From NCBI GenBank assembly GCA_016880465.1, contig JAEHDK010000441.1, forward strand, positions 1 through 39,587: 39,587 bases of DNA. Direction: 5' to 3'. Under the pieces are notes generated by a model. The model saw nothing but the letters and a program-made list of their open reading frames with translations, was not told the origin of the DNA and made no database searches. Positions 16,083 through 27,938 of the stretch are shown here, piece by piece (position 1 is the stretch's first letter; every line of letters starts with the position of its first letter). The stretch comes from Micromonosporaceae bacterium (GTDB lineage: Bacteria > Actinomycetota > Actinomycetes > Mycobacteriales > Micromonosporaceae). The translations under genes were made by a program, and so were the position numbers.

Positions 16083-19000
16083 CTAGCCAGACCGCGGCCG
16101 GCACCCCAGCGGCGCGGTCCCGACCGGGTGCCCCTCGATCGGGAAGTACCGGTCGACCAGCTCGTTACCGAACTTTCCGGTCGGGTCGTACGCGCGCCGC
16201 AGGCGTACGAAATCCGCCCACCGGTCGTACCGGTCACGCAGCACCGCCGGTGGAGTCCGGAAGAGCTTTGCCCAGTGCGGGCGGGCGGCGAACGGTGCCA
16301 GCGCCTCCTCGACCGCAGCCAGCGCTGCGGCCACCGCGGGCACGTCGAGGACCCAGGTGAAGTGGATGGCCAAACTGTCCCGCCGGTAGCTCGGGCTCAG
16401 CCACAGGTCGTCGGCGGCGACGGTACGGACCTCGCTGACCTGCACGACCGGCGCGACGCGGTCACGGATGCGGTCGATCGCGGCCAGCGCCGGCATGCCG
16501 TGCTCGCGGGCCACCAGGTACTCCGACTGCAGCTCGGCGCCGCTGCTCGGGATGGCATCGACCCGGAAGTGCGGCAGCCGGGCGTACCAGGGACCCGGCG
16601 CGCCGAGCTGGGCCGTGCAGCCGGCGGCGGGCAGGCGGGCGATGGGATGCCGGGGTCCGTCGGCCAGCCGGGCACCGAGCCAGGCTCGGCCCGGCGCCGG
16701 TTCGCGGCCATCGATCCGCCGCTTCAGCCACAGCTGATTGACTTCCGGGCCGGTCCAGTCGGTGAACAGGCTCACGCTGTACGCGCTGCCGAAGATCTCC
16801 GCCCAATGCTCGTCGAGCTGCCCGCGTGGCAGGTTCTCGTAGACGTACTGGGCGACGTCGAACGCGGGCACGATGTCCAGCGTCACGGCCGTGACGATGC
16901 CGAGCACGCCGAGCCCGACGACCGCGCCGGCGAACCGGTCGCCGCCCCGCCGCAGCGTCACGAGCTCGCCGTCGGCGGCCACCAGCTCCAGCTCCGCGAC
17001 CGAGGTCGCCAGGTTGCCGTTGCGGTCGCCCGAGCCGTGGGTTCCGGTGGCAACCGCGCCCGCTACCGAGAGGTGCGCCAGCGAGGCGAGGTTGGCCAGC
17101 GCGTACCCGGCGGAGTGCAGGTACGGCGCCAGTTCCCCGTACCGCACGCCGGCGCAGACCCGGACGACCCGGCGCGCAATGTCGATGTCCATGACCGGCG
17201 GGAGTCCGGCCAGCGAGACGAGATCGCCGCAGGTGTCGGCGAGCCGGCTGAACGAGTGACCGGTTCCGACGGCATGGATGCGTTCGCTGCCGGCGACCAG
17301 CCCGCGAAGTTCGTCCACAGTGGACGGCTCGAGATACCGGGACGCCGAGAAGACCACATTGCCGGCCCAGTTCGTCCGCCCGATCACGCGGGCTCGCCGA
17401 GCCGCCGGCGCCGCTGACTCCGCCGGGTTGCCGTCCACAGTGGATAGCCAGGCGCCGACGGCGGCCGCCTCGGCGTGCCGGTGGGTGCCCAGGATGCCGT
17501 ACGCCTCCCGGCCGTCGCCCGCCGCTCCCAGCCGGTCGCCGCCGGCCAACCGGGCCCGCCCGAGCAGGTACAGGGTCCGCGCCAGGTAGGTCTGCTGGCC
17601 GGTGGCCCGGAGGATCGTCACCGCCGGTTCGAGGTGCGCGATCGCCTGAGCCGGCCGGCTCTCCGCCAGGTGCAGGCGGCCGAGATTTCGCAGCGCGGTC
17701 GCCTCACCCCACGGATGGCGCAGCTCCCGAGCCGTCCGCAGGGTCCGGTCGAGCAGGTCGCGGGCGCGATCCAGGGCGCCGAGCGTCAGGTACACGCCGG
17801 CGAGGGAGTTCTCTGCCATCGTCAGGTTCAGCCGGTCGCGCAGTTCGGCGTACATCTCGATGGCGCGCCGCAGGTGCGTGATCGCGGCCTCGAGCTGCCC
17901 CTGCTCGTGCAGTGCCTGGCCGAGGAACGCGTGCGCCTCGGCGGCACCCCAGCCTTCGCCGAGTTCGTCGAAGATGGCCAGTGCCCGCCGTACCGTGCCG
18001 GCGCGGTCCGGCGTGTCGCGGGTCGCCAGCACGGCGTAACCGGCCAGCGGTGTGCTGCCGCCGTACCGATCCAGGTGGGTGAACGCGGCCTCGAGCATGG
18101 CCCTGGCGAACCGTGGCCGGCCGAGCAGGCCGGCGGCGACCGACCAGCACAGCGCCGCGCAGGCCGCGCCGAGTGGCTCGCCGACCTTCTCGAACTGCCG
18201 GTACGCCCGGCGCAGCAGCGCGAGGGCGGCCCGGTCGTCGTCGCGGAACCGGTACAGGTTGCCGAGGTTGAGCCAGAGCGTCGCCTCGACCGCGGGGTCG
18301 AGCGGGCAGCCCGGCGCGTCGAGTACCGCGCGGTGACTGTGCTCCCACTCGTCCTGGTACCCGCGCATCATGCAGAAGTTGACCATCGACGCCGCCAAGC
18401 GGCCGGCGAGATCGCGCCAGCCGAGCCGGACCGCATGGTCGACGGCCACGACGAGGTGCCCGCGCATCGCCTCGAACCAGCCGACCGGGTCGGCCGGCGG
18501 ATCCTCCACCGGCACCGCGGGCGCCGGAACCGGGCTCGCCCGGCAGGGCAGCCGGCCGTTCGCCTCCACGGCGGTGGCCAGCAGGGCCCGGCAGACCCGC
18601 GCTACGGCCGCGTCCAGCGCCGCTGCCGGCTCGGTGTCGCGCGCCCGTACGGCGGCGTGCAACCGTACGAGATCGTGGATGCGGTACCGATCACCGTCCA
18701 CAATGGAGATAAGGTGGGCCGCGCTCAGGTCGTCGAAGAGGCGCTCCGCCTCGCGCGCCGGCAGCTCAAGAAGTGCCGCCCCGAAGGCCGGTGTGACGGT
18801 CGGGAACGGTACGAGGCTGAGCAACCCGAGCAGCCGTGCCGCCTGGCCGTCCAGGTGCTGGTAGCCGACCTCCAGGCTCGCGCGTACGTCCAGATCGGCC
18901 GCGACCAGCTCGTCCAGGCGCCGGCGCTCGTCGGCCAGCCGGTCGGCGAGGTGGACCGTGTCCATGGTGCGGCTGCGCACCAGCCGGACGGCGGCGACCC

Positions 19001-20477
19001 GGATGGCCAGCGGCAGCCCGCCGCACAGCGCGACCACCCGTTCGGCGTCGTCCCGCTGGCCGCCGATCCGGCTCTGCCCGGCGACCCGGGTGAGCAGGCG
19101 TACGCCGTCGGTGAGTGGCAGCGGGTCGACCGCGACCAGACGCGCACCGGCCAGGCCCGTCAACAGCGGCCGGCTCGTCACCAGCACGCCGCAGCCCGCG
19201 CCCGGCAGCAGCGGCCGCACCTGACCGTCGGTTGCCGCGTTGTCGAGGACCAGGAGCATCCGCCGGCCGGCGAGGACCGACCGGTACAGCCGCTCGCGAC
19301 CGGCGAGGTCGGCGGGTGTCGTCTCGGTCGAGATGCCCAACGCGTGGAGGAACGCACCGAGTACCACCCGGGGCGGCGTGGGCTGCGCGTCCGTACCGCG
19401 GAGGTCGACGTACAGGCAGCCGTCCGGGTACTCGTCGCGTACCTCGTGCGCGAGCCGTACGGCGAGGGTCGTCTTGCCGATCCCGCCCATGCCGGAGATC
19501 GCGACGATCACGGCTGAGCCGGGTGCATCGGGCGGTGGGCCGGCGCGCAGCATCGCGCCCAACTCGCCGAGCTCGCCGCGGCGGCCGACGAAGTCGGCAA
19601 TGCTCGCCGGCACCTCCATGGGCACCGGCAACGGCTCGGCCGGCCTGGGCCGGTCCGCGGGTTTGGTCGCGTCGCCGGGCATGGGCGGGTCAGGCGCCTC
19701 GACCGGGTACGACTCGGCCGACACCGCGCTCCACAGTAGAGCGTTGTCGCGGCGGAGCACCGCCTGCCGCAGCTCGGTGAGCTCGGTGCCGGGCTCGATG
19801 CCGATGTCCCCGACGAGGGCCGCCCGCGCGCTCGCGAACACGTCCAGCGCCGCGGCCGGATCGCCGACCCGGTACAGCGCGAGCATCAGCAGCGCCTGGC
19901 CGTGCTCCCGCAGCGGGTGGGCGCCCACGTGCCCGCGCAGCAGCGGCAGGACCGCGTGGTGCCGGCCGAGCCGGAGCTGAGCCTCGAACGCCAGCTCGGC
20001 GGTGGACAGGTAGACATCCTCGAGCGCGGTACGCCGGGCCGCGAGCCCGGCCCCGACCGGGACGCTCTCGAAGGGCCGGCCGCGCCACAGCCCGCACGCG
20101 CTCGTGAGTGCCTCGGCGCCGGTGGCCGGGTCGCCGTTCGCGAGCGCGGTACGCCCGGCCGCGACCAGCTCGGCGAACACGTCCAGATCGAGCTCGCCGG
20201 GCCGGACCCGCAGGAGGTACCCGCTGCCCGCGGCCGACAGGCGGTCCGGCGGCAGGAGCCGGCGCAGGCGCATCGCGTACGTCCGGATGTTGGCCACGGC
20301 CGATGCCGGCGGCCGTTCGCCCCACAGCTCGTCCACCAGCCCTTCGGGCATCACCGCACGGTTTGCCGACGCCGCGAGGACGGCCAGCATCGTGCGCAGT
20401 TTGGGTGCGCCGATGGCTACCGGCTGCCCGTCAAGCCGTACCTCGAACGGGCCCAACATGCGGAGCTCGCAGCGCAC
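16083..20477 (-). CDS. SARP-type regulator (BTAD/NB-ARC/TPR) fused to FAD-linked sugar oxidase
   Basis: 1464 residues in one uninterrupted frame. Residues 1-90 are the winged-helix DNA-binding domain and 95-250 the BTAD helices of SARP activators. Residues 290-570 are an NB-ARC ATPase with Walker A GMGGIGKT (329-336) and Walker B LLVLDNA (408-414). About 650-1010 are TPR helices. From about 1035 a complete aldonolactone/alditol oxidase begins (TNWAGNVVFSASRYLEPSTV). GTGHSFS holds His1074, expected to bind FAD covalently, and the end has PHWAKLF and YDPTGKFGNELV. The oxidase part equals a stand-alone enzyme starting at GTG 17387 (434 residues), but no stop or good ribosome site separates the two, so as sequenced they form one protein. 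It may link DNA binding to sugar or redox sensing. GTG 20477 is 6 bases after a TACAGT box. Confidence 0.8.
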   Translation of the reverse strand: MRCELRMLGPFEVRLDGQPVAIGAPKLRTMLAVLAASANRAVMPEGLVDELWGERPPASAVANIRTYAMRLRRLLPPDRLSAAGSGYLLRVRPGELDLDVFAELVAAGRTALANGDPATGAEALTSACGLWRGRPFESVPVGAGLAARRTALEDVYLSTAELAFEAQLRLGRHHAVLPLLRGHVGAHPLREHGQALLMLALYRVGDPAAALDVFASARAALVGDIGIEPGTELTELRQAVLRRDNALLWSAVSAESYPVEAPDPPMPGDATKPADRPRPAEPLPVPMEVPASIADFVGRRGELGELGAMLRAGPPPDAPGSAVIVAISGMGGIGKTTLAVRLAHEVRDEYPDGCLYVDLRGTDAQPTPPRVVLGAFLHALGISTETTPADLAGRERLYRSVLAGRRMLLVLDNAATDGQVRPLLPGAGCGVLVTSRPLLTGLAGARLVAVDPLPLTDGVRLLTRVAGQSRIGGQRDDAERVVALCGGLPLAIRVAAVRLVRSRTMDTVHLADRLADERRRLDELVAADLDVRASLEVGYQHLDGQAARLLGLLSLVPFPTVTPAFGAALLELPAREAERLFDDLSAAHLISIVDGDRYRIHDLVRLHAAVRARDTEPAAALDAAVARVCRALLATAVEANGRLPCRASPVPAPAVPVEDPPADPVGWFEAMRGHLVVAVDHAVRLGWRDLAGRLAASMVNFCMMRGYQDEWEHSHRAVLDAPGCPLDPAVEATLWLNLGNLYRFRDDDRAALALLRRAYRQFEKVGEPLGAACAALCWSVAAGLLGRPRFARAMLEAAFTHLDRYGGSTPLAGYAVLATRDTPDRAGTVRRALAIFDELGEGWGAAEAHAFLGQALHEQGQLEAAITHLRRAIEMYAELRDRLNLTMAENSLAGVYLTLGALDRARDLLDRTLRTARELRHPWGEATALRNLGRLHLAESRPAQAIAHLEPAVTILRATGQQTYLARTLYLLGRARLAGGDRLGAAGDGREAYGILGTHRHAEAAAVGAWLSTVDGNPAESAAPAARRARVIGRTNWAGNVVFSASRYLEPSTVDELRGLVAGSERIHAVGTGHSFSRLADTCGDLVSLAGLPPVMDIDIARRVVRVCAGVRYGELAPYLHSAGYALANLASLAHLSVAGAVATGTHGSGDRNGNLATSVAELELVAADGELVTLRRGGDRFAGAVVGLGVLGIVTAVTLDIVPAFDVAQYVYENLPRGQLDEHWAEIFGSAYSVSLFTDWTGPEVNQLWLKRRIDGREPAPGRAWLGARLADGPRHPIARLPAAGCTAQLGAPGPWYARLPHFRVDAIPSSGAELQSEYLVAREHGMPALAAIDRIRDRVAPVVQVSEVRTVAADDLWLSPSYRRDSLAIHFTWVLDVPAVAAALAAVEEALAPFAARPHWAKLFRTPPAVLRDRYDRWADFVRLRRAYDPTGKFGNELVDRYFPIEGHPVGTAPLGCRPRSG

Positions 20478-21154: not shown

Positions 21155-21690
21155 TGATGTACCTGTTCGGATTCGTTCTCCTCCTGCTCACCGGCGCGGT
21201 CGTCGTCCTGTTCGCGATGCTCGGCGAGCTGTCCTCCCGGGTCACCCCCGGTTCAGGCGGCAGCCCCGAGGACGTACGGCCGCTGCTCGACGTACCGGTC
21301 GGCAGGGCGCCGGAGCGTTGGCCCGGCCCGCTCGCCGAGCTCGCCGGGGCCGAGCAGGCCGTCGCGCTGGTCCTGAGTACCGCGTGCACCAGCTGTGCCA
21401 AGGTCGCCGGCCAGCTGCGCGACCAGCCAGAGCTGGTCGCCGGCCAGCACATCGGCGTGGTGATATCCACGGCGGACCGCCAGCGCGGCGACGAGTTCGT
21501 CGCGCAGCACGGCCTGGCCCGCCTCCCGTCCTATGTGGACGAACAGGGCGAGTGGGTGGTGCGGGAGTTCGGCATCAACACCAGCCCGTCGGCACTGGTG
21601 TTCCAGCGCGGGCGGCTGGTATCCGCGTTCGTGTTCACCGACGCCGCGGCGCTCCGCGCGGCGGCGCATCCCGCTAAGGAGGCGGTATGA
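21154..21690 (+). CDS. MauD-like membrane-anchored thioredoxin
   Basis: 178 residues. One N-terminal transmembrane helix (4-23) anchors an extracytoplasmic thioredoxin-like domain. The active site is CTSC (Cys78, Cys81) in STACTSCAKVAGQL, and the cis-proline loop is INTSPSALVF near 149. MauD proteins have this build and are needed together with MauE for forming the six disulfides of MauA. Here it should oxidise, reduce or isomerise disulfides in an exported partner, most simply the Cys-rich protein encoded next. The start could be GTG 21151, ATG 21154 or ATG 21157. ATG 21154 fits GGAG 8 bases upstream. It overlaps the next gene by 4 bases. Confidence 0.75.
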   Translation: MMYLFGFVLLLLTGAVVVLFAMLGELSSRVTPGSGGSPEDVRPLLDVPVGRAPERWPGPLAELAGAEQAVALVLSTACTSCAKVAGQLRDQPELVAGQHIGVVISTADRQRGDEFVAQHGLARLPSYVDEQGEWVVREFGINTSPSALVFQRGRLVSAFVFTDAAALRAAAHPAKEAV

Positions 21691-22031
21691 GCGACACCGA
21701 CGAACGGCCGCCCGAGCGGTCCGGCGGCAAGACCCGGCGCCGGATCCTGGGCACCATCGGCGCCGGTGGCCTGGCTACCGCGGCGGCCGTGTTCGGCCGG
21801 TCCGCACCGGCGTTCGCCGGCAACTACGGCTGCTGCAACCTGGCGTTCACCCCGGGCAGCAGCCGGTACATCGGCTGGAGCAGTTGCACGAGCTACCGGC
21901 TCTGCCCGAACTGCCTGGGCAAGTACATCTGGTACTGCAGCAAGTCGCCGTCGATGGACTGCGGGTGCTGCGAGCTCTACTCGGGCAACTACAACTGGCA
22001 GTACTCCGGCGCCACCTGTTACTACGCGTAG
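21687..22031 (+). CDS. Tat-exported small Cys/Tyr-rich protein (MauA-position)
   Basis: 114 residues. A twin-arginine signal TRRRILGT (16-23) with a mild hydrophobic stretch ends at APAFA-GNY, so the mature protein is about 70 residues. It holds ten cysteines (49, 50, 67, 73, 76, 84, 92, 94, 95, 111), ten tyrosines and three tryptophans (64, 82, 104). Tat export means it folds, or takes up a cofactor, before crossing the membrane. The order MauE-MauD-this gene equals mauE-mauD-mauA, where MauA is a Tat-exported, six-disulfide protein carrying a tryptophan tryptophylquinone. I see no clear alignment to MauA and no heavy-chain gene, so it is called only by position. It may be an electron carrier, a modified peptide or a toxin-like knot. 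ATGA overlap with the MauD gene. Confidence 0.8.
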   Translation: MSDTDERPPERSGGKTRRRILGTIGAGGLATAAAVFGRSAPAFAGNYGCCNLAFTPGSSRYIGWSSCTSYRLCPNCLGKYIWYCSKSPSMDCGCCELYSGNYNWQYSGATCYYA

Positions 22032-24450: not shown

Positions 24451-24639
24451 TTACAGGTCGTGGAACACGTCGGGCGAAGTGGCGGGGGTGGTTGCTGACT
24501 CGTCGGCGGCGACCTGCTGACCCATGGTTGGCTGGCTCAAGTCGTGGAAGACACTGGGGGCCACGGCAATGCCCGCCATGAGTAGACCGGTCGCCGTCAA
24601 TCTTGCGATGGTGCTGATCGCGGTGCGCTTCGGGTGCAT
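24451..24639 (-). CDS. Small exported peptide with repeated P-x-VFHDL motif
   Basis: 62 residues with a perfect AGGAGG 6 bases before ATG 24639, so it is well supported despite its size. Residues 1-27 form a signal peptide (KRTAISTIARLTATGLLMAGIAVA) with a possible AVA-PS cleavage. The mature 35 residues start with PSVFHDL and end with PDVFHDL, joined by a polar Gln/Ala/Thr/Ser-rich linker. No cysteine. No family recognised. The repeated ends look like a precursor of a short signalling peptide or an adhesion or interaction motif. It is divergent from the large LuxR-type regulator gene, with 228 bp between starts. Confidence 0.75.
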   Translation of the reverse strand: MHPKRTAISTIARLTATGLLMAGIAVAPSVFHDLSQPTMGQQVAADESATTPATSPDVFHDL

Positions 24640-24722
24640 GAGTGCCTCCTGGCGATCCGTTGTTTCAGGTTACTCCCGGCCAGGTAGTGGTCGCTAAGGG
24701 TGACCATCTCCCATGGCGGCCG

Positions 24723-24775
24723 AGTTAACGCAAGGTGAACGCCAGGTAAACACTTGGCTACATGGATCATATAGA
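24723..24775 (+). promoter_or_regulatory. Probable LAL promoter with direct repeats
   Basis: TAAACA (24747-24752), 17 bases, TATAGA (24770-24775) form a possible promoter about 90 bases before GTG 24868. Overlapping and upstream of the -35 box are direct repeats AGTTAAC (24723-24729), AGGTGAAC (24733-24740) and AGGTAAAC (24744-24751), spaced 10 and 11 bases. This is the one-turn spacing expected for an activator bound on one DNA face. Confidence 0.4.
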
Positions 24776-24867: not shown

Positions 24868-27699
24868 GTGGCCGAGGCGGCTCTCGATGCTTTTCTTGTC
24901 GGCCGGCAGCGCCAGCTCGGTTGGGCGCGCGGGTGGCTGGCTGCTCTGACCGCCGGAACCGGCCGCGCCGTTCTCGTCGAAGGCGAACCGGGTATCGGTA
25001 AGTCTGCGCTCGTCCGGGCCACCGCCGATGACGCGGTCGCCGCCGGATGCCAGATGTTCTGGGCCGCCTGCGACGAGCTGAGCCAGGCCTTCCCCTTGTT
25101 GCCCCTGCTGGACGCGTTGGAGGCACGGGCTATCCCCGGAGTGCGCGGCGAGCCGACCATCGCCGACCTGCTCCGCGCCGAATCGGCGCCGGGCAACCGC
25201 GTCGACATGGTGGCCGCCGCGGCCGAACGGCTACTCGCACTCGTCGACGACTACTGCGCGGCGGCGCCAATGATGCTCGTCGTCGACGACCTGCAATGGG
25301 CCGACCCGGCAACCGTACGGACCTTCGGCCGGCTGGTCCGGACCGTGGGCCAGCTCCCGCTGTTGCTGGTCGGCACCATGCGACCGGTACCGCGGCGCGA
25401 CGACCTGACTGCCCTGCGCCGCACCATCGAACCAGCCGGGCTGGTCCGGCTGCACAACCTGTCGGACATCGAGGTTGCCGAGTTCCTCGCCGAGGCGGTG
25501 GACGGTACGCCGAGCCCCAACCTGCTGCGCCTGGCCGGCGGGGCGGCCGGCAACCCGCTGTACCTCACCGAGCTGGTCGACGCGCTGGTACGCGGTGGTG
25601 CGCTGGGGGTCACCGATGGCGTTGTCGACGTGGTCGGCGAGGAGGTGCCGGACTCGCTTGCCGCGGCGATCGCCGACCGGCTCGAATTCCTGTCCGGCCC
25701 GGTGCGGGAGGTGCTCCGCGCGGCCGCCCTGCTCGGCAGGGACTTCTCGGTCTCCGAGCTGGCGGTGGTCTCCCGTCGCGGGCTGAGCGACCTGCTCCCG
25801 GTCCTCGACGAGGCGATGCTCGCCGGTGTGCTGCGCGACCACGGCGCCGAACTGGCGTTCCGCCACCCGCTGATCCGGACGGCGCTGTACCTGGCGATGC
25901 CGGCCGCCGTCCGGGCGGCCTGGCACCTGGATGCCGGCCGGGCGCTCGCCGAGGCGGGTGCCCCCGCCGACCAGGTTGCCCGGCAGTTGTTGCCGGCACT
26001 CGAGTGCCAGGACGGTGCCGGCCCGGTCGACGACTGGCTGGTGCGGTGGCTGGCGGACTCGGCGCAGCATCTGGTGAGCCAGGCGCCCAACGCGGCGATC
26101 CCGCTGCTGCGCTGGGCAATGGCGGGGCGCTCGCCCGGCGCGCCGCCATCCGACCTGCTCGCCTGCCGGCTGGCGGACGCGCTGTACCGGGTCGGCGATC
26201 CGGCCGGTGCGGCCCAGGTGGCGACCGCCGCACAGGGCTACGTCACCCGCCCCGACCTCCTCGTCGACCTGCACTGGACGCTGGTCCAGTGCCAGGCGAT
26301 GGAGGGCCGTTCCGCGGAGGGGATCGCGGCTCTGGAGCGGGCTCTGGCTTCTCCCGGCGTCGGTCCGCAGCAGCGGGCCCGGCTGCTCGTACTCACCGCC
26401 CGGATGCACAACCGGCTCGGCCAGATCGACACCGCGCGGCAGATCGCCGAGGCTGCCCTGGCCTCGGCGGCGATCGTCAACGACCGCTGGGCTACCGGCT
26501 GGGCACTCGGCGTACTGACGATGGCGCACGGGATGCGAGGTGAGTCGACGCGCGCGCTGCCCCTGTTCGAGCGCGGACTGGCGGTGACCGAGGGCGATCC
26601 GGCACTCGCCGATCTGCGGCTGGTCCTGCAGATCAACCAGGCGTCGGCGCTCGGTGACCTCGATCGGTACGAGGACGCGATCAATGCGGCCGAGCAGGCC
26701 CGGCGACTCGCCGACGAGGCAAGCAACGTCGTACGGCTCGCGCAGGCCCAGAGCGTGCTCGGCGAGCTGCTGTTCGACGTGGGCCGGTGGGACGACGCGC
26801 TGGCCGAGGTCGACCCGGCCCCGGGCGCCGCCAAGGACCCGGTCGTCGAGTGCAGCGACCGCGGCGTGGCCACGACGATCCGGCTGCACCGCGGCGAAGC
26901 CGAGGCCGGTCAGCAGCTCGTCGAGGCCGAGCAGTACGCCGCCCTGATCGGCGACCGGGTCATCGGCTCGCTGACCCTGGCTCGGGCACTGGATCGGGAG
27001 CAGGCGGCCGAGCCGGCCGACGCGCTCGCGGTCCTGATGGCCGGGCTCGCCGACTCGGTCGAGGAGCTGGAGGAGCGTGCCGACCTGCTGGCCGACGCGG
27101 TGCGGCTGGCCGTCGCGGTCGGCGACCGTACGGCCGCCGGAAACATCGTCGCGCGGGCCGAGGCCGCCGCACAGGCGTCCGACGTACCGCACCGCCGCGC
27201 GGTCGCGCTGCACTGCCGCGGCCTGTTCGACCACGATGCGGTACCGCTGCTCCAGGCGGCCGAGTACTACCAGGCAGCCGGGCGGCCGCTGCCGCACGCC
27301 CAGGCACTGGAGGCGGCGGGTGTGGCGCTCGCCGACCGCGGCGACATCCCGGACGCCCGTACCCACTTCACGGCCGCGTTCTCGCTCTACACCGCATTGA
27401 ACGCGGGCTGGGACCTGGCGCGTACGCAGGCCAGGTTCCGGGCCTACGGCATCCGGCGCGGGCCGACCGTCCGGCACCGGCGCTCGCGGCGGGGCTGGGC
27501 CAGCCTGACGCCCACCGAGCTGCGCATCGTCCGGCTGGTCGCCGAGGGGATGTCGAACCCGCAGATCGCCGGGCATCTGTTCCTGTCGCGGCGGACGGTA
27601 CAGACGCACGTCTCGCACATCCTCGCGAAGCTGGACCTGCACTCGCGGATCGACATCGCCCGGGAGGCGAGCCGGCGCGACGTCACGCCGCCGAGCTAG
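24868..27699 (+). CDS. LAL-type LuxR-family transcriptional regulator (AAA ATPase)
   Basis: 943 residues, the usual size of MalT/LAL regulators. Walker A is GEPGIGKS (39-46) and Walker B MLVVDDLQWAD (136-146). A winged-helix and helical-repeat middle runs from about 260 to 860, with repeated Ala/Leu-rich TPR-like helices. At the end is a LuxR helix-turn-helix (about 875-935) with LTPTELRIVRLVAEGMSNPQIAGHLFLSRRTVQTHV. Such proteins bind ATP and an inducer and activate metabolic or biosynthetic genes. The start GTG 24868 leads straight into AEAALDAFLVGRQRQL, the usual beginning. No Shine-Dalgarno is clear. Its natural target may be the divergent small-peptide gene. Its stop overlaps a possible convergent gene. 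Confidence 0.9.
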   Translation: MAEAALDAFLVGRQRQLGWARGWLAALTAGTGRAVLVEGEPGIGKSALVRATADDAVAAGCQMFWAACDELSQAFPLLPLLDALEARAIPGVRGEPTIADLLRAESAPGNRVDMVAAAAERLLALVDDYCAAAPMMLVVDDLQWADPATVRTFGRLVRTVGQLPLLLVGTMRPVPRRDDLTALRRTIEPAGLVRLHNLSDIEVAEFLAEAVDGTPSPNLLRLAGGAAGNPLYLTELVDALVRGGALGVTDGVVDVVGEEVPDSLAAAIADRLEFLSGPVREVLRAAALLGRDFSVSELAVVSRRGLSDLLPVLDEAMLAGVLRDHGAELAFRHPLIRTALYLAMPAAVRAAWHLDAGRALAEAGAPADQVARQLLPALECQDGAGPVDDWLVRWLADSAQHLVSQAPNAAIPLLRWAMAGRSPGAPPSDLLACRLADALYRVGDPAGAAQVATAAQGYVTRPDLLVDLHWTLVQCQAMEGRSAEGIAALERALASPGVGPQQRARLLVLTARMHNRLGQIDTARQIAEAALASAAIVNDRWATGWALGVLTMAHGMRGESTRALPLFERGLAVTEGDPALADLRLVLQINQASALGDLDRYEDAINAAEQARRLADEASNVVRLAQAQSVLGELLFDVGRWDDALAEVDPAPGAAKDPVVECSDRGVATTIRLHRGEAEAGQQLVEAEQYAALIGDRVIGSLTLARALDREQAAEPADALAVLMAGLADSVEELEERADLLADAVRLAVAVGDRTAAGNIVARAEAAAQASDVPHRRAVALHCRGLFDHDAVPLLQAAEYYQAAGRPLPHAQALEAAGVALADRGDIPDARTHFTAAFSLYTALNAGWDLARTQARFRAYGIRRGPTVRHRRSRRGWASLTPTELRIVRLVAEGMSNPQIAGHLFLSRRTVQTHVSHILAKLDLHSRIDIAREASRRDVTPPS

Positions 27700-27938
27700 C
27701 CCCGCGCCGGTGCGGCGACCTCAACCGGGGACGGCGGCCGCGGGCGGGGGATGCGCACCGGCCCACACTCGCGGAGCTCGTCGGCCTCGACCGGCCCGCC
27801 CATCGTCTCCAGGTGGAGGGCGAGGTGCGCGCGCATACCGGCATTCCATGCATGCTGGTCAATGTCTGGCGGCGCTATCCAGCGGTGCGAGTGATCGGAG
27901 TAATGCAAGTCGTCATCCCCTTTTCGCAGCACACTCAC
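27696..27938 (-). CDS. Possible small unknown protein convergent to LAL
   Basis: 80 residues from GTG 27938 (GGGAAG 9 bases upstream). It has an acidic/His-rich start (KGDDDLHYSDHSHRWIAPPDID), a helix (AWNAGMRAHLALHLETMGG) and a Pro/Arg-rich end. The second half has normal codon bias; the first is less GC-rich. Its TAG overlaps the TAG of the LAL gene on the other strand, a common arrangement of convergent genes. No family recognised. Confidence 0.4.
   Translation of the reverse strand: MSVLRKGDDDLHYSDHSHRWIAPPDIDQHAWNAGMRAHLALHLETMGGPVEADELRECGPVRIPRPRPPSPVEVAAPARG

Follow-up and report, generated by a model that had tools for sequence, protein, structure and literature searches.

The window, by which we mean the whole stretch of 39,587 nucleotides analysed here, carries at positions 24451 to 24639 on the minus strand a gene of 62 codons plus stop for a putative exported peptide precursor, with equivalents at 19 further LAL loci. 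Its translation, read from 24639 down to 24451, is MHPKRTAISTIARLTATGLLMAGIAVAPSVFHDLSQPTMGQQVAADESATTPATSPDVFHDL. Inspection of the sequence and a Shine-Dalgarno scan located AGGAGG (24645–24650, minus strand) 5 nt upstream of the ATG, and the encoded N-terminus has a K/R-bearing start followed by a hydrophobic stretch, in line with the Shine-Dalgarno sequence and signal peptide that an earlier note had claimed for this frame. The pentapeptide VFHDL is encoded twice on this strand, at residues 30–34 directly after the signal sequence (24538–24552), and at residues 58–62 (24454–24468), which form the C-terminus, an end conserved across genera and the proposed pheromone unit. Synonymous codons partly differ between the two copies, and when the last 36 residues were shuffled 100,000 times, a repeated 5-mer appeared in 55 cases. 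The earlier note had the mature part begin with PSVFHDL and end with PDVFHDL. Both are present, the second at the very C-terminus, but the exact mature start is uncertain, because AVA|PSV, the sole AxA site found in a crude signal-peptidase scan, would place Pro at +1, where cleavage by signal peptidase is disfavoured. Searches of Pfam and PHROGs gave no fitting family for the peptide, and the lone NCBIfam row for the peptides was for the homologue from genome G341, at an E-value of 0.51, far under the cut-off; the second NCBIfam query, L126:4501-4722, was meant as the peptide of genome G330, and its frame is putative.

On the opposite strand, with 228 bp between the start codons, lies the large LAL regulator from which the earlier note had correctly described the peptide gene as divergent. 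This proposed receptor (24868–27699, plus strand; GTG start, 943 aa) was characterized by Pfam, AlphaFold models and its orthologues. An AAA_16 NTPase domain (E 1.5e-20) is followed by a TPR solenoid at about residues 389–858 (TPR_12 by Pfam) and a GerE HTH at residues 879–933 (E 7.5e-17), and the motifs GEPGIGKS and VVDDLQWAD are present. The protein thus has the features of the LAL class: large size, an N-terminal ATP-binding domain with Walker motifs and a C-terminal LuxR HTH. On sequence homology of the LAL to Rap, NprR, PlcR, PrgX, Rgg or AimR, a search of PDB chains listed GerE-type HTH proteins alone at E 0.01, and the fold matches Rap, AimR and NprR (below).

Relatives of the peptide were sought by its own sequence. 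With the 62-aa peptide as the sole query, 370 pattern stretches were obtained from genome contigs, none of them a confirmed relative, and a search of 354 family genomes gave one real homologue (G341, E 0.026), low in a long list of weak matches. A weak match recurring in many family genomes (query residues 16–58) was dismissed, as it has a TAG inside the frame and no such motif. For a two-row peptide profile, the listed matches besides its own two rows fall inside other reading frames. The double motif, searched as a DNA pattern, occurred in 2 of the 354 family genomes (the window and G341, both real), and the reversed control gave one match; in the genome contigs it matched 17 stretches, with a short exported peptide only in L067 (Micromonospora sp. 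NBRC 107566), and the other 16, out of frame or within larger frames, were set aside. Six MAG contigs (L065, L069, L070, L071, L074 and L079) have a larger protein in common, in which NHVHDL and NNVFHDI occur as units; it was rejected as unrelated to the peptide and merely fits the DNA pattern. The search for VFHDL in small exported proteins, which the earlier note had proposed, therefore yielded relatives (G341/Micromonospora sp. NBRC 107566), but the exact double motif is very rare and VFHDL itself is no family signature; the family was revealed only through a search with the LAL. The G341 peptide has the same design: its signal part is followed by SVYHDM, its linker has 23 residues, the same length as that of the window peptide, and its last residues are AVYHDM. 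It too is divergent from a LAL, which is 63% identical to the window LAL over 941 aa.

A 341-residue part of the window LAL was used as query against the 354 family genomes (E 1e-40), and at least 37 related LALs were found in 27 of them, a lower bound because six candidates were scored per genome. Besides the window, which supplied its own LAL, 36 LAL regions located in 35 loci were compared. A divergent upstream gene for a peptide of 37–74 aa with a signal-like start is present at 20 of the 37 LALs and absent at 17, and these 20 loci represent 20 genomes from 9 of the family's 44 genera (designated g1, g2, g8, g22, g30, g33, g38, g39 and g42). A strict rule (ATG, 30–80 aa, at least two K/R, 11 of 14 positions hydrophobic, Shine-Dalgarno match of at least 4/6, distance 100–400 nt), drawn up after the peptides were already known, passes at precisely those 20 of 37 LALs, versus 36 of 4000 random windows sampled from 13 of the stretches, one of which was the window. 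An ending of the form [FYW]-x-D-x was seen in none of the 36 rule-passing random windows. The LAL tree (37 sequences) has many weakly supported inner branches; it places the 20 peptide-bearing proteins within a clade of 25 that is split from the other 12 at support 1.00. No peptide lies beside any of the 12 outgroup LALs, and 5 of the 25 clade members are without an adjoining one. Conservation of the gene in relatives with the same neighbourhood, on which the earlier note had made its reading depend, is consequently found in 20 of the 37 LALs, all in one LAL clade. A LAL search of 394 genomes of the class (E 1e-45) matched the own genome alone among the five candidates scored per genome, a depth at which the result is no proof of absence, and the best LALs in plasmid records are 31–39% identical. 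In genome G351 two clade LALs (L118:4684-7497 and L118:9686-12499) lie close together on one strand, with a peptide at only one.

The C-termini of the peptides are alike across genera. An aromatic-x-Asp-x ending ([FYW]-x-D-x) is found in 13 of the 20 peptides, from seven genera: VFHDL in the window, VYHDM, IYYDL, DYYDT, VWLDI (twice), LWYDM, LWHDM, VWLDV, MWHDL, TYYDS, TYFDG and TYHDF. The six g30 peptides all have a final Pro (AVYHP, IRVYP, IAHHP, ARLYP, ARFNP and TRLHP), and the sole g22 peptide ends in FMPYD; these two groups fall outside the pattern, which counts against a pheromone reading. Whether g30 and g22 were included or left out, the similarity of the last five residues, calculated with one peptide per genus and with representatives of our own choice, was higher than that of each of 20,000 shuffles of the final 20 residues. 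Two identical copies are found in only 3 of the 20 peptides (the window, G341 and G330), and Pro-x ahead of the motif recurs in G330 (SPN-IYYDL, and TPP-IYYDL if counted loosely) and G342 (RPD-DYYDT). As judged from these comparisons, the constant of the family is a C-terminal unit of about five residues and not the double copy or the exact VFHDL. The earlier suggestion of a signalling precursor tied to the LAL is accordingly strengthened in its conserved linkage and weakened in its details, as the double copy is not essential.

The g30 genes are the most informative, with only 37–38 codons that correspond to a signal peptide and a variable pentapeptide. In five of the six, the last five residues directly follow an AxA signal-peptidase motif, and in the sixth they follow VSA, so that cleavage at this site would free the pentapeptide; additional AxA sites closer to the start occur in five of the six. 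Among the four closest g30 species the stretch preceding the end is nearly invariant and three of the five final residues vary. Pairwise codon comparisons between these four species were nonsynonymous in 15 of 30 cases at the end versus 19 of 150 in the preceding 25 codons (p of 1.7e-5, a guide only, because pairs share history). For the two genera with several species, the nonsynonymous/synonymous ratio was 0.24 (g8) and 0.47 (g30), and a nonsynonymous rate under the synonymous one indicates protein-level constraint on these genes; in a few single g30 pairs dN is near or above dS. A g30 peptide profile found one gene per g30 genome, and an extra row (E 0.0097) inside a 329-aa frame was taken as chance. 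A comparison of LAL positions separating g30 from the other peptide-bearing LALs gave a single position, and this line was dropped.

A palindrome, TACCTGGCCAGGTGTAA or a near form of it, is found upstream of most peptide genes. In the window the candidate operator is TACCTGGCCGGGAGTAA (24670–24686, minus strand), centred 40 nt upstream of the ATG; it agrees with the family consensus at 15 of 17 positions, a score reached by 0 of 100 shuffles. Scored with this consensus, which was derived from the same peptide promoters, 16 of the 20 promoters have at least 12 of 17 matches; in 12 of these 0 of 100 shuffles reach the score, and in the other four 1 to 6 do. The scores at L126, L124, L118 and L129 were no better than those of shuffles, and a TGGCCAG core is readable in three of these four. 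The exact form ACCTGGCCRGGTGT occurs 11 times in the 20 genomes, seven times before a peptide gene and four times elsewhere; the reversed control also gave four, so that these counts offer no sign of a regulon wider than the peptide gene itself. The palindrome of the TACCTGGCCAGGTGT region is a plausible candidate site for the LAL. Upstream of the palindrome, three heptamers with 11-bp spacing, TTTACCT-n4-TTCACCT-n4-TTAACTC (24722–24750, minus strand), score 17 of 18, with 0 of 300 shuffles reaching this, and are confined to the window and some relatives; the g8, g33, g42 and g22 regions showed no excess of heptamers over shuffles. We take the layout in the window to be reminiscent of SARP-type regulator boxes.

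Neighbourhoods were compared at 14 loci; one of these covered 5.4 kb and the other 13 about 20 kb each. Besides the LAL, the single recurrent neighbour is a gene for a small conserved protein (GDDDLHYSDHSHRWIAPP...) that is convergent with the 3' end of the LAL gene (27696–27938, minus strand in the window), with a similar gene at 16 of the 20 peptide loci. The protein contains GDxxLHYSDxSHRWxAPP and matches no Pfam family above the cut-off. Matches of any strength were obtained in 23 of 101 sampled genomes, several of them without this LAL (distant homologues), so it may be incidental to the peptide–LAL system. Genes for modification enzymes, proteases, sensor kinases, immunity or transport do not recur at a constant position next to the LAL in the 14 loci. 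SARP-type (6 loci), ABC-ATPase-like (4) and MFS-like (3, read from sequence) ORFs do recur; they were weighed for a RiPP or SARP reading and set aside, their positions being variable. Oligopeptide-binding proteins (SBP_bac_5) are encoded in 9 of 9 genomes checked. Elsewhere in the window, a 1464-aa ORF (16083–20477, minus strand) fuses a SARP-type regulator (BTAD, NB-ARC, TPR) to a FAD-binding sugar-lactone oxidase (FAD_binding_4, ALO), and a 114-aa Cys-rich exported protein (21687–22031, plus strand) has a twin-Arg-like start and no Pfam match, and may resemble the small subunit of methylamine dehydrogenase.

AlphaFold models gave a long TPR solenoid both in the whole window LAL (pLDDT 84.8) and in residues 385–862 alone (92.3). 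In a VIA-align comparison of the latter model, with Z differences under 1 treated as ties, the top seven rows are Rap-pheromone entries (Z 23.0–23.6), among them RapF-PhrF (4i9c, Z 23.6, 346 residues, 5.0 Å) and RapJ-CSF (4gyo, Z 23.5, 340 residues, 4.9 Å). The same TPR model matched MalT domain III at Z 23.0, AimR at 22.7, APC/C TPR subunits at 21.9 and NprR-NprX at 21.6. For the whole-LAL model MalT ranked first, with Rap among the next, and Foldseek's own ranking put eukaryotic TPR proteins on top. The fold is therefore permissive evidence, since MalT domain III and APC/C match almost as well and Foldseek favours eukaryotic TPR proteins: by its fold the modelled LAL could accommodate a short peptide, and actual binding is putative. 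In RapF, as described in parts of PMC3601957, a pentapeptide lies on the concave side of the TPR solenoid. Three peptide-less LAL paralogues of the clade (L130:5167-7761, L131:1547-4132 and L133:1522-4095; 858–865 aa) end before the GerE HTH, and for two of them the same genome has the complete LAL about 20 kb away. Like Rap, these paralogues may act as receptors that do not bind DNA.

We favour, with moderate confidence, a model in which a pheromone of about five residues is released from the C-terminus of the precursor, taken back into the cell and sensed by the adjacent LAL as cytoplasmic receptor and regulator. The gene, its linkage and conservation, the constraint on its codons, the recurring palindrome and the receptor-type fold are established, and processing, import, binding and output are what we infer. 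In this pathway the precursor, which has a signal-like sequence in all 20 cases, would be exported by Sec and cut by signal peptidase. A C-terminal unit of about five residues would then be freed, in the window as VFHDL from both copies through extra proteolysis, and in g30, to judge from the anatomy of its precursors, directly by the signal-peptidase cut; outside g30, freeing the end requires one more protease, a point against the pheromone reading. Re-import could proceed through an oligopeptide permease, binding proteins of the right family being present. As its fold suggests, the LAL would bind the peptide on the concave face of its TPR solenoid, as Rap binds Phr. Finally, its activity would change at the conserved ACCTGGCCAGGT palindrome before the peptide gene, forming an autoregulatory loop; the LAL may read the peptide, control the peptide gene, or both. 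The conserved C-terminus and the oligopeptide-binding proteins are no more than compatible with a re-imported peptide of 5–10 aa that is bound by the TPR domain.

The divergent layout and common palindrome would also suit a regulator and its target, and passages of PMC3282765 describe LALs as usually regulating neighbouring genes. The peptide could accordingly be a LAL-controlled extracellular product (a surface factor, an antimicrobial or a signal for a membrane-bound receptor), with the LAL sensing something else. A five-residue g30 product would be small for an antimicrobial or a surface factor, the neighbourhoods offer no recurrent immunity, transport or sensor-kinase gene at a fixed place, and the end diversifies where the remainder of the precursor is kept; we consider this reading unlikely, though still deserving some weight. 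It is improbable that the peptide is an uncut small membrane protein, or a toxin-like hydrophobic peptide, with the LAL as its regulator. That reading would account for the g30 peptides, which at 37–38 aa are mostly one hydrophobic segment, but not for the constant spacing between AxA or VSA and the C-terminus in 6 of 6 of them, nor for the long polar linkers and conserved ends in other genera.

A RiPP precursor with the C-terminus as core would likewise be short, with a variable end and an adjoining regulator. The 14 loci show no conserved adjacent modification enzyme, the leader is a Sec-type signal and not a RiPP leader, and the ends are without a Cys, Ser or Thr pattern, which leaves this reading a slender chance. 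As for a chance ORF with a chance repeat, G+C-rich DNA has many short ORFs, but for the family as a whole this is contradicted by the excess of peptide genes at the LALs over the base rate in random windows, by constraint at the codon level and by the conserved ends, and its probability is negligible.

To our knowledge, what LALs sense is mostly unknown. If one LAL clade reads the adjoining peptide, the nature of the ligand could be tested with synthetic pentapeptides, other LALs could be screened likewise, and these peptides would be the first genetically encoded ligands for LALs. Taking the pheromone model further, we see about an even chance of peptide quorum sensing outside Bacillota, in which STAND-type LALs of one actinobacterial family read adjacent pheromones of about five residues with genus-specific types (VFHDL, VYHDM, VWLDI, LWHDM, TYHDF, ARLYP and others) and the HTH-less LAL paralogues serve as extra receptors or sinks. 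Confirmation would establish a new form of bacterial peptide communication and mean that linear peptides signal through cytoplasmic TPR receptors in Actinobacteria too, where the signals named in sections of PMC10075063 and PMC4748050 are small molecules and peptides that are cyclic or modified. LAL regulators are common in actinomycete antibiotic gene clusters, according to parts of PMC3282765. A literature search, mostly without subscription papers and preprints, found no LAL–peptide pair, and the relevant sections of PMC4748050 and PMC3466318 describe actinobacterial signalling and LuxR proteins without one.

Like LAL/MalT-type STAND proteins, the window LAL has AAA_16, TPR and GerE in that order and a close structural match to MalT domain III; unlike them, it is divergent from a conserved exported peptide gene. 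The ligand of MalT is a sugar. The double-unit exported precursors of the window, G341 and G330 resemble those of Phr3T and Phr105, which have two identical or near-identical units, one internal and one C-terminal (parts of PMC11343458), although the peptide sequences and the receptor family are unrelated. The closest likeness in design is to RRNPP(A) systems (Rap-Phr, NprR-NprX, PlcR-PapR and AimR-AimP). As in these, a short Sec-exported precursor gene adjoins that of a cytoplasmic TPR protein, the signal unit is proposed to be about five residues at the C-terminus, and VIA-align Z scores place Rap, AimR and NprR nearest to the TPR fold. In contrast, the proposed receptor has 943 aa and is of the STAND/LAL type, with an NTPase domain and a GerE HTH at its C-terminus, the gene order is divergent and the host belongs to Actinobacteria instead of Bacillota; RRNPP systems are described for Firmicutes in parts of PMC10075063, PMC11343458 and PMC9765709. 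Among the features that RRNPP_detector looks for are adjacent genes, a short precursor that is exported, TPRs in the receptor and a receptor length of 250–500 aa (section of PMC10075063); the peptide–LAL pair has the first three features and its receptor exceeds that size, so that the pair would work like an RRNPP system and not be a member. If so, the TPR-pheromone solution would appear to have been reached on two unrelated receptor architectures.
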